The notes beneath the pieces were generated by a model. It made no database searches. It saw only the letters and a list, made by a program, of their open reading frames with translations, and was not told the origin of the DNA. From the NCBI GenBank assembly GCA_027459625.1, contig DAIDHP010000003.1, positions 124,001-188,000 on the forward strand: DNA of 64,000 nt, given 5' to 3'. This document shows positions 27,366 through 30,187 of this stretch, one piece after another (the first letter of the stretch is position 1; each line of letters starts with the position of its first letter). The DNA comes from Chthonomonadales bacterium (lineage in GTDB: Bacteria > Armatimonadota > Chthonomonadetes > Chthonomonadales > CAJBBX01). Position numbers and translations under genes: made by a program.

Positions 27366-27618
27366 ATTGGTTTGCGTGCAGATATTCCTTATAAGTAAAT
27401 CTACCTTATCTCAAAACGCTGACAAAATTCCGGTAATTGTAACAGTCCAATAATGCGATGGAATTGATACAATAGAAGTGCGGTGGCATCATTTGTCAAT
27501 TGTTCGCAATGCAGGTGATTGAATAATTCTCGTTATGGGCGCAGCGCCAAATACAAGATCGGCGATACATACCTATTTTAAGAATTTTACAATCGCCTCC
27601 GGTTTATTAAGGAAGGTA

Positions 27619-27873
27619 ATGATGCAGCACTTATTTACTTGTCTCTCGTGTGGTTATCCATGTCAAAAGAGAACTGTTTCAGTCAACTTGCCACGCTCCG
27701 GAGGGGGGATCGCAGTATTTAGGAATGTAACTGCGGAGGTTTGCACTCAATGCGGAGAGATGCATTTCACATTGCTCACCACTAGTCGAATGATTGCAAT
27801 AGTTCAAGGATTTTCACCTCCGGATGATATGGAACTCGTTCCGGTATACGATATGCAACGGGCGAGTGGATAG
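27619..27873 (+). CDS. YgiT-type zinc finger protein, solitary
   Basis: About 84 residues. It has a CxxC...CxxC zinc finger (CLSCGYPC and VCTQCGEMHF) followed by a short tail, as in YgiT/MqsA N-terminal domains and the small YgiT-type finger proteins often linked to toxin-antitoxin loci. No toxin partner (MqsR or a DUF4258-type protein) lies on either side, and the MqsA helix-turn-helix is absent. Two adjacent ATGs (27619, 27622) follow GGAAGG. The product may bind DNA or a distant partner; function unknown. Ends in a strong terminator. Confidence 0.75.
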   Translation: MMQHLFTCLSCGYPCQKRTVSVNLPRSGGGIAVFRNVTAEVCTQCGEMHFTLLTTSRMIAIVQGFSPPDDMELVPVYDMQRASG

Positions 27874-27905
27874 ACCGTTCAAGTGAAGGAAGGACGAATC
27901 GAATG

Positions 27906-27937
27906 CGGGTCGGCAATGTAGCCGACCCGTTATTTTT
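27906..27937 (+). terminator. Terminator after the YgiT-type gene
   Basis: CGGGTCGGC and GCCGACCCG form a perfect nine-base-pair stem with a six-base loop, followed by TTATTTTT. Insulates the pspA operon to the right. Confidence 0.93.
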
Positions 27938-27966: not shown

Positions 27967-27995
27967 TTGACAGGCTAAGCTAAAAATGGGATAAT
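27967..27995 (+). promoter_or_regulatory. Promoter of the pspA operon
   Basis: TTGACA (27967-27972), 17-base spacer, GATAAT (27990-27995): a sigma-70-type promoter 50 bases ahead of pspA. No sigma-54-type GG-GC element was seen, unlike the enterobacterial psp operon. Confidence 0.8.
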
Positions 27996-28045
27996 TGGCT
28001 TAACGCTATTACATATTTGATAGGTGTCTTCGAGAGGAGTGTGCG

Positions 28046-28849
28046 ATGTTAAAACGTTTTTTCAGATATCTGCGAGCTCTCTTTATGGGCAAACTTGATC
28101 AGATGGAGGATCCCGAGGTTATTTTAAACGAAGCTTTGCGTGAGATGAGGGAAAACCAAATCAAGAATCGGGAGCGGGCAGTGCAAGCCCTCACGCAACG
28201 TAACAATCTGCAAAATCTGGTTGCCACGGAGGAAAAGACCTGCCAGAACCTCGAAGCGAAGGCGAGCATGGCATTGCAGCAGGGGAATCGCGACGTGGCG
28301 CGCCAACTAATGCGCGAGAAGTTACAGCATGATGGTACCCTGACCCAGCTACGCACCTCCTTGGAACAGGCCAGCCAAACCTGCGAAGCGGTTAAAACGG
28401 CTATCCAACGGGAGGAGGAACAATTCCGCGTAAAGACCGCAGAGGCTCTTGCGATGAAAGCGAACATGAAACAAGCGCAAATTCAGATTGAGATCAACAA
28501 GGCGCTGGATGGTTTTCAGAAGGACGAGACCTCTCAGAGTTGGGATCGCGCGGAGGAGCGCATCCACACTATGCAATCCGAGGCTCAAGCGAGGTCGGAG
28601 ATTTCAGGCACTTCCGTGAATGCCCGATTGACTCAAATACAGGATGCGCAAGTGGATGTGGAGGCCGAGGATGCGCTCAAATCCCTCGAGGTGAAGATGG
28701 GTTTGGCGAAAGCCCCTGAAGCGGCTCAGCCTGCCGTTCAGCAACCCGCCACTCAAGCTCCGCCCGTTGTCACACCCGCGCCGCCAGAGAGCGATGTGGA
28801 TAAGGAATTAGCGGAATTGGAAAATAAGCTTAATCAATCTACGAATTGA
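28046..28849 (+). CDS. pspA: PspA/IM30 family membrane-stress protein
   Basis: 267-residue PspA/Vipp1 relative, ESCRT-III-like, expected to assemble on the inner face of the membrane and preserve its integrity. The N-terminal amphipathic helix (MLKRFFRYLRALFMGKLDQMEDP) and the long helical hairpin (residues about 25-215, rich in Glu, Gln and Ala) are clear. The C-terminal 45 residues are a Pro/Ala/Gln-rich linker ending in a short acidic helix, an extension that PspA of E. coli lacks. First gene of a three-gene operon with a membrane coiled-coil protein and a degenerate J-domain protein. Confidence 0.93.
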   Translation: MLKRFFRYLRALFMGKLDQMEDPEVILNEALREMRENQIKNRERAVQALTQRNNLQNLVATEEKTCQNLEAKASMALQQGNRDVARQLMREKLQHDGTLTQLRTSLEQASQTCEAVKTAIQREEEQFRVKTAEALAMKANMKQAQIQIEINKALDGFQKDETSQSWDRAEERIHTMQSEAQARSEISGTSVNARLTQIQDAQVDVEAEDALKSLEVKMGLAKAPEAAQPAVQQPATQAPPVVTPAPPESDVDKELAELENKLNQSTN

Positions 28850-28864
28850 TGTATAAAGGACCCA

Positions 28865-29689
28865 ATGAAATCGACTGATAGGTTTTTACGTGTTTTATTA
28901 AAAACGTTGACTTCGGCGCCCTCCCTTCTGATCCTTCTGATTTCCGTTTTGGCGGGAGGGCTGGGTCATTTATGGGGGGTGGGCGTTCTTATATTTTTGT
29001 TCGGTGAACTGATGTTGCTTTTTTTTCATTTGAACAATGTCAGTTATCTCAACAAGCTCTTCGGCGGCGAGGATGATTCCAAAGCCCAATTGAACGATAA
29101 GGAAGTTGAGGAGATGCTGGAGGGGATGGATTTCGACACTCGGCAACGGATGAGATACATTTGGCAGATTGAACGCGACTTACTAACAGAAACCAAGGAA
29201 AAGGATGTTCCGAGCTACGTAAGAGAACACCTCAACGGCATAGGGTCTCAATTGAATCCACTCCTCTTCCGTGCTATGAAAATTGGCAAACGGAGACAGG
29301 ATATCATGCAGTATCTCACAACCACCGATGAGCGAGCGATAAAAAGGTCTTGCGATATTTTACGGCAGCGAATCGCTTCCGAAAATGACGCAGTAACCCG
29401 CTCTCAATACGAACAAGCTCTCAACGCGAGGGAGGCTGAACTGGAGGCGTGGAAGGGAATCGATCAGTCCCTGCAAAGAATCGACAGCCAATTGGAGAAC
29501 TTGGAGGCCACGCTGTCTAGTTGGAAGGCCAAAGTGATACGCATCAAATCCTCCGACGAGGCGGGAGCCTCCATGGTTAGCGAAGGATTGAACCTTGAGT
29601 TGAAAAATCTTAACGACAATATCGATTCGCTGGATACAAGCATTCGCGAAGTGTTATCCACGGATAATTCCCTGCGACAAGAAAAATAA
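28865..29689 (+). CDS. Membrane-anchored coiled-coil protein of the pspA operon
   Basis: 274 residues, family not recognised. Two hydrophobic segments near the N-terminus (about 19-35 and 38-55) form a hairpin in the membrane; the remaining 215 residues are charged, helical and probably coiled coil, ending in a segment (about 185-265) with heptad-like spacing. No catalytic motif was seen. It starts 15 bases after pspA with AAAGGA upstream and is followed after six bases by the J-like gene. A membrane partner for PspA is the natural inference from context. Confidence 0.8.
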   Translation: MKSTDRFLRVLLKTLTSAPSLLILLISVLAGGLGHLWGVGVLIFLFGELMLLFFHLNNVSYLNKLFGGEDDSKAQLNDKEVEEMLEGMDFDTRQRMRYIWQIERDLLTETKEKDVPSYVREHLNGIGSQLNPLLFRAMKIGKRRQDIMQYLTTTDERAIKRSCDILRQRIASENDAVTRSQYEQALNAREAELEAWKGIDQSLQRIDSQLENLEATLSSWKAKVIRIKSSDEAGASMVSEGLNLELKNLNDNIDSLDTSIREVLSTDNSLRQEK

Positions 29690-29695
29690 CATCCC

Positions 29696-30187
29696 ATGAG
29701 CTTTGGAAATAGAATTCGCACAGTGTATCTCTCCCAAATCAAAGCTTTGAAGGATCATTTGGAAAGATTGGATTTGGGGTTGGATTCGGAATATAACACC
29801 GCCGCTTCCTCATTCGATGCGCAGAAGGAGCTAAGTGAATCCATGCAACCCGGAGCTTCGGTGGCTAGTCAAACGCCGCTGACGCCCGTTACGGATATAC
29901 CCGTAGCGAACGGGCAACCGCTTCAGTCGCCGCCGCAGCAGATTGCCGAGCCTGATCCTATGATGATTCATTACAAAGTGTTAGGCGTGCCGCGAAATGC
30001 TGATATCTCGGTTATCAAGGATGCGTGGATGAGTTTACGCCAGCGGTGCGATCCCTCTCGATTTCCCGAAGGAAGCGAGGAGAGGGGCACTGCGAAGAAT
30101 ATCCAAAAAAGGGTGGATGAATCATGGAAGGCGATACGCGATTTCCTTGATCCACAAGCGGGTAGGTTTGACAAGTTGGAAATATGA
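29696..30187 (+). CDS. Degenerate J-domain protein of the pspA operon
   Basis: 163 residues. An N-terminal helix (1-30) and a Pro/Gln-rich linker (50-90) lead to a C-terminal domain (about 91-153) that reads like a DnaJ J-domain: HYKVLGVPRNADISVIKDAW, then a helix III-like EERGTAKNIQKRVDESWKAI. The HPD tripeptide needed to stimulate Hsp70 is replaced by CDP (118-120), so it should not act as a normal co-chaperone. No good ribosome site is visible six bases after the previous stop, so translation is probably coupled. Function unknown. Confidence 0.75.
   Translation: MSFGNRIRTVYLSQIKALKDHLERLDLGLDSEYNTAASSFDAQKELSESMQPGASVASQTPLTPVTDIPVANGQPLQSPPQQIAEPDPMMIHYKVLGVPRNADISVIKDAWMSLRQRCDPSRFPEGSEERGTAKNIQKRVDESWKAIRDFLDPQAGRFDKLEI

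Follow-up and report, generated by a model that had tools for sequence, protein, structure and literature searches.

A pspA operon of Armatimonadota encoding a membrane-hairpin coiled-coil protein and an HPD-less J-like protein

The pspA transcription unit and its membrane-hairpin protein

The window, meaning the whole 64,000-nucleotide stretch analyzed here, contains three closely spaced genes on the forward strand: pspA (28046–28849), a gene for a coiled-coil protein designated CC (28865–29689) and a gene for a J-like protein (29696–30187). According to the open reading frame coordinates, 15 bases separate pspA from CC and 6 bases separate CC from the J-like gene, exactly the tight linkage that an earlier, sequence-only reading of the locus had described. 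The genes are preceded on the same strand by a putative promoter, identified by consensus alone (27967–27995). Its TTGACA element, of which position 27967 is the first base, is followed at a distance of 17 nt by GATAAT with an extended −10 TG, giving 11 of 12 consensus matches. A terminator-like hairpin and T-run on the plus strand (27905–27930, stem with eight G-C pairs) separates the unit from the ORF upstream; chance would supply about three such sites in the scanned region, and the hairpin is weak evidence by itself. The upstream ORF (27535–27873, 112 amino acids) is an orphan of the YgiT-type zinc-finger family (TIGR03831, above cut-off) and lacks the helix-turn-helix region found in MqsA antitoxins. 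Within the unit, dN/dS values of 0.008–0.13 for PspA, 0.035–0.39 for CC and 0.03–0.11 for the J-like protein indicate purifying selection on all three genes.

The 267-residue product of the first gene is a clear member of the PspA/IM30 family, which belongs to the bacterial ESCRT-III superfamily. It matches positions 3–215 of the 220 in PF04012 (E = 1.2e-31), scoring 110.5 bits against a curated cut-off of 33.9. PspA, a membrane-repair protein related to human ESCRT-III, polymerizes at the cytoplasmic surface of the inner membrane. Alignment with 22 relatives places the N-terminal amphipathic helix alpha-0 at about 28046–28111 on the plus strand, and also identifies a proline-rich linker and a short C-terminal helix. 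Alpha-0 of PspA is a membrane-binding element that shapes tubules (PMC12358876). A search of plasmids with PspA returned one match, a Paenibacillus PspA. At a separate locus (L115:6583–8356), an intact second pspA precedes a number of short ORFs, spread over different frames, that match PspA and look like a broken pspA duplicate or a frameshifted assembly.

CC is a protein of 274 residues whose gene also lies beside pspA in relatives. Its hydropathy is highest at residues 20 and 38 (means of 2.09 and 2.37), in stretches covering approximately residues 20–55, and the AF2 model (pLDDT 86) has helices at residues 18–34 and 37–57, followed by a long coiled coil. Hydropathy and model together predict a membrane hairpin at residues 18–57 (28916–29035, plus strand), in which two hydrophobic helices joined by a two-residue turn leave almost no outside loop and lead into a coiled coil of about 160 residues. 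Both ends of the hairpin are predicted to be cytoplasmic. The same location presumably applies to the coiled-coil bundle at residues 117–273 (29213–29683, plus strand), which was delineated by family comparison and contains the most conserved block of the CC family, RIDSQLENVEATFASWKAKVIRIK.

No credible match to CC was found in Pfam, NCBIfam or PDB sequences. The searches and the predicted hairpin thus agree with the earlier description of a two-helix membrane coiled-coil protein belonging to no known family. Nothing worthwhile in Pfam, NCBIfam, PADLOC or the PDB identified CC as a known PSP or defence partner. CC scored 11.3 bits (E = 0.23) with the PspC model TIGR02978, whose cut-off is 104; kinship with PspA was unsupported (hhalign probability 1.3%), as was kinship between CC and the J-like protein (0.1%). 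Among solved folds, only generic helical matches were obtained; those to BAR and F-BAR chains reached Z 9–11, below the value of about 13 given as helical-bundle noise, and Foldseek E-values exceeded 0.1. The relatives of CC in named genomes come from metagenome-assembled genomes labelled Chthonomonadales, Chthonomonas or Armatimonadetes, which places the window in the phylum Armatimonadota. Its coiled-coil domain also occurs in unlinked paralogues (L073–L075, L079 and L081), two of which, L074 and L075, have carB-like neighbours. In family f4 (families carry internal numbers, f1 being that of the window genome), CC-domain proteins with a membrane segment (L076, L077 and L080) adjoin a conserved gene starting VRVEDLGMFRFLHEVLNRVNVAYVATYPPAECGIATFTRDL, which is probably a glycosyltransferase; the J gene of f4 lies elsewhere and has no adjoining pspA.

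The J-like protein and its altered HPD tripeptide

The last gene encodes 163 residues, organized as an amphipathic helix, a Pro/Gln-rich linker, a J fold lacking HPD and a conserved C-terminal tail. The fold occupies residues 88–151 (29957–30148, plus strand). An AF2 model built with 35 relatives reaches a pLDDT of about 95 over approximately residues 90–150 and has its helices in the J arrangement. The first 41 Foldseek matches to this model are J-domain proteins (probability 0.97–1.00); the shortness of the domain keeps their E-values at 0.01 or higher. Comparison by VIA gave Z 8.7 to the J domain 6rzy_A and Z 8.4 to the J-like domain of Tim16 (2guz_B, rmsd 2.2, 61 aligned residues). The window protein scores 20.7 bits against PF00226, under the curated 27.8, while 30 of its 35 relatives match Pfam DnaJ (best 1.1e-9) and the family profile matches PDB J domains with E = 2.5e-7. 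By these models the last protein of the operon is a J-fold protein; the sequence-only reading had staked itself on that fold, and the AF2 confidence and the top Foldseek matches bear it out. No relatives were found in viral contigs or plasmids.

Alignment of 80 family members places the equivalent of HPD at D119-P120-S121 (30050–30058, plus strand), with the proline kept, histidine changed to aspartate and aspartate to serine. C118 aligns with the residue that precedes the histidine of HPD. The earlier reading was therefore correct that HPD has been lost, and one residue off in giving the replacement as CDP; the triplet is DPS. HPD is present in only two of the 80 members and lost in the other 78. 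P120 is kept in 70 of the 80 and F123, two residues past the triplet, in 77. Stimulation of the Hsp70 ATPase requires HPD (PMC3720927), and the window protein does not carry this hallmark of an Hsp40 co-chaperone. The source genome has DnaK beside DnaJ, and five J-domain genes above the Pfam cut-off. An Hsp70 system is present in the genome, yet the J-like protein is without the contact motif.

The two orthologues that keep HPD (L072:5140–5730 and L129:3824–4519) both belong to family f9, and both sit in operons of the order pspA-CC-J. They possibly represent an ancestral, Hsp70-competent state, and the presence of HPD-bearing relatives in the same operon suggests an origin of the line in a genuine J protein serving PspA, with the Hsp70 connection lost later. 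These orthologues, together with the retention of the motif proline in most of the family, could instead be taken to mean that the J-like protein still serves as an Hsp70 co-chaperone by a non-canonical route, as a bacterial functional equivalent of CDJ2. We consider this quite improbable, since the tripeptide needed for ATPase stimulation has disappeared from the other 78 members, including those of all other families.

The J fold is followed by a tail (residues 152–163, DPQAGRFDKLEI; 30149–30184, plus strand), which is conserved to the same degree as the fold itself. In the alignment of 80, R157 is retained in 79 members, F158 in 74, L161 in 73 and E162 in 67. The resulting RFDxLEL motif is near-universal among the J-like relatives and is missing from both of the HPD-keeping orthologues.

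The opposite end of the protein, residues 1–26 (29696–29773, plus strand), forms a cationic amphipathic helix that reads MSFGNRIRTVYLSQIKALKDHLERLD in the window and MSIPERFYRIARxKLxELKDRLD in relatives. The best hhalign alignment of the J and PspA families runs N terminus to N terminus, onto PspA residues 1–39 (P = 0.0028), and an ungapped comparison of the helix profiles gave p = 0.004–0.005 against shuffled and pattern-preserving nulls. Mean hydrophobic moments are 0.58 for the J helix and 0.51 for PspA. Shuffling the J helix sequence by sequence gave no significant amphipathicity (p 0.17–0.41). The helix of the J-like protein thus bears a moderate resemblance to PspA alpha-0 at the sequence level; the resemblance is short (p about 0.003–0.005) and could be convergent in origin.

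The structural match to Tim16, the second best obtained, raises an alternative in which the protein would act as a Pam16/Tim16-like regulator. An HPD-less J protein of this kind would pair with a true J protein and hold or restrain it at the membrane, and DnaK would remodel PspA upon release. The genome encodes the DnaK and J-domain proteins that such a scheme needs, and pairing between J-like proteins is known from the CJD1-ARC6 two-hybrid interaction (PMC3196505). However, the Tim16 Z score is tied with those of ordinary J domains such as 6rzy_A, and no dedicated HPD-bearing partner was seen in or beside the operon. We regard this scheme as unlikely.

Conservation of the linkage across Armatimonadota

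The order pspA-CC-J recurs in 18 other genomes from five families: all 10 other f1 genomes read, both of f2, three of f19, two of f9 and one of f15, where broken pspA-like pieces intervene. The three-gene set is thus conserved beyond the window, as the sequence-only reading supposed. With or without CC, pspA lies close upstream of J on the same strand at 51 of 79 J loci in nine families. All 17 f3 genomes have the arrangement pspA-J without CC, as do f24 and some members of f15 and f43. A further gene occupies the middle position in f6 and in some f15 and f43 genomes; it encodes a barrel-like protein in f6 and f43 and is a different gene in L066. CC itself adjoins pspA in f1, f2, f9, f13, f19 and f20, and is near pspA in one f15 genome. 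Two genomes, G050 and G040, have pspA-CC without a recognized J. Among 61 relatives, CC and J are both present throughout f1 and f2 except in G001, a genome of the same genus as the window genome. This exception is unusable as a case of operon co-loss, as the flanking genes (rpsT and a TolC-like gene) lie at contig ends; the 273 bases before the rpsT-matching stretch are not J.

Flanking genes vary between families, with rpsT downstream in f1, pterin dehydratase and cysteine desulfurase in f3, and mixed genes upstream. These differences indicate that the pspA/J set is not simply a frozen segment of chromosome, and linkage of J to PspA across nine families rules out chance adjacency. To examine the distribution of the two genes, 251 genomes of the phylum were scanned with the J profile, E below 1e-12 defining J-positive, and with PF04012. 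PspA was found in 130 of 132 J-positive genomes, compared with 56 of 119 that are J-negative; the genome-level p = 3e-23 for this co-occurrence ignores relatedness and is not to be taken at face value. The two J-positive genomes without PspA are G120, in which J lies at the very start of a contig, and G241. Counted by family, PspA occurs in 13 of 13 J-positive and 21 of 31 J-negative families (p = 0.02), and within f19 six genomes have both proteins and nine have neither (p = 2e-4). That the genes are merely neighbours without a functional link is highly improbable, being contradicted by the conserved linkage with changed flanks, the tight spacing and the co-occurrence.

PspA is not the partner of J in every branch. 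In Fimbriimonas-type genomes (f14 and f44) the order is barrel, CC-like protein, J, and PspA is present elsewhere, unlinked; in f6 and some f43 genomes the barrel gene separates pspA from J. The barrel-like protein (A5) is about 293 residues long, starts with a signal-peptide-like segment and matches Porin_4 weakly; it is predicted from its sequence to be an outer-membrane barrel. Its gene is found upstream of CC-J or else with pspA on one side and J on the other (L062–L064, L094, L104, L107, L111, L112, L126, L127 and L133), and 60 of the 70 genomes checked show linkage to J. J-positive genomes account for 72 of the 77 that have the barrel, and the remaining five have weaker J-profile matches. 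J therefore accompanies PspA in one branch, a CC-like protein plus the barrel in another and several of these in a third, which makes J, and not PspA, the constant member of the set. The earlier, PspA-centred reading needs correction on this point, since in f14 and f44 it is the CC-like protein and the barrel that stay with J.

The barrel invites a second alternative, in which J, CC and the outer-membrane protein would be the core of a trans-envelope module concerned with envelope assembly or with lipid or protein traffic, and not with PSP stress; PspA would be a frequent but secondary client. The frequency with which the barrel accompanies J, and the CC-like gene placed between them in f14 and f44, argue for such a module. 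Against it, the barrel is missing from the window genome and from its gene order, a single marginal match in G010 aside, and PspA is the constant partner there; the barrel fold is itself predicted from a weak match. This module also strikes us as unlikely.

A possible adaptor for PspA and its relation to known systems

We infer contacts among PspA, CC and the J-like protein, an adaptor role and an evolutionary origin for the system. The reading that we prefer, at somewhat less than even confidence, is that the J-like protein is an Hsp70-independent membrane adaptor, with CC as its anchor, that positions or nucleates PspA assemblies. CC would be fixed in the inner membrane through its hairpin, with the coiled-coil bundle facing the cytoplasm, and the J-like protein would be held on the membrane by its alpha-0-like amphipathic helix. 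The HPD-less J fold and the RFDxLEL tail would then bind PspA, CC or both, such that PspA is recruited or nucleated at CC sites, or its assembly state is tuned. Its ancestor would probably be an authentic J protein recruiting Hsp70 to PspA, in the manner of CDJ2 with VIPP1. Operon linkage, co-occurrence, the J fold and the PspA-like helix all count in favor of the adaptor, as do the loss of HPD from 78 of 80 members despite the DnaK, DnaJ and HPD-type J genes in the genome, and the two tail-less orthologues that retain HPD within pspA-CC-J operons. Several observations count against it: PspA is unlinked to J in f14 and f44, the sister family f3 has the operon without CC, the helix resemblance is short and may be convergent, and the genome-level co-occurrence is uncorrected for phylogeny.

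Like other PSP systems (PspA/IM30/Vipp1, within the ESCRT-III superfamily), the operon combines a clear PspA with a membrane partner protein. It differs in what the partners are, a hairpin coiled-coil protein and a J-like protein, and profile libraries recognized no known PSP partner in either. PspA is ordinary here; its partners are not. Neither "DnaJ" nor "J-domain" occurs in the running text of a large PSP-partner survey from 2024 (PMC11237479), although the survey's tables or web application may list such a protein without a label. With that scope, the absence of any J protein from the survey's text is in keeping with the earlier judgment that such a partner was not yet described. A search of the literature on Armatimonadetes or Fimbriimonas together with PSP or PspA found nothing relevant.

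A functional parallel comes from chloroplasts, where HSP70B, CDJ2 and CGE1 assemble and disassemble VIPP1 (PMC10602608). Both systems dedicate a J-fold protein to a PspA relative, on genomic evidence here and biochemical evidence in Chlamydomonas. CDJ2 and DJC73 have an HPD-bearing J domain, which the window protein lacks; its family has lost HPD almost throughout, has added the PspA-like helix and the RFDxLEL tail, and is encoded in the pspA operon. CDJ2 homologues are reported to be absent from cyanobacteria (PMC3720927), and simple common descent with CDJ2 is thus not indicated. The two HPD-keepers in pspA-CC-J operons nevertheless make a CDJ2-like, Hsp70-dependent ancestor possible, and the chloroplast analogy apter than that of a pure scaffold. 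Tim16/Pam16, ARC6 and CJD1 share with the window protein an HPD-less J fold and a membrane setting, and Tim16 is among its closest folds. They differ in architecture, and the likeness rests on the fold and not on specific sequence kinship.

A fuller and more tentative account, to which we give appreciably less credence than to the adaptor, is that much of Armatimonadota possesses a variant PSP system built around a former Hsp70 co-chaperone, the bacterial counterpart of CDJ2. Having lost its contact with Hsp70, and equipped with an ESCRT-III-like helix, this protein would have become a dedicated adaptor linking polymerized PspA with a hairpin protein of the inner membrane and, in certain lineages, with a barrel of the outer membrane; the HPD-keepers would preserve the ancestral, Hsp70-driven state.

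The 2024 survey states that it is unknown how assembly is regulated by PspA homologues lacking an associated AAA ATPase (PMC11237479). A J-fold protein encoded in a bacterial pspA operon bears on this question of PspA/Vipp1 control in bacteria that have no dedicated ATPase partner. With a family of pspA-operon J proteins, HPD-less apart from two members, one can test directly whether the ESCRT-III superfamily is served by J folds outside plastids, and whether this can happen without Hsp70. The occurrence of the J-like protein and CC with pspA across much of Armatimonadota points to an undescribed means of anchoring or controlling a membrane-remodelling polymer.
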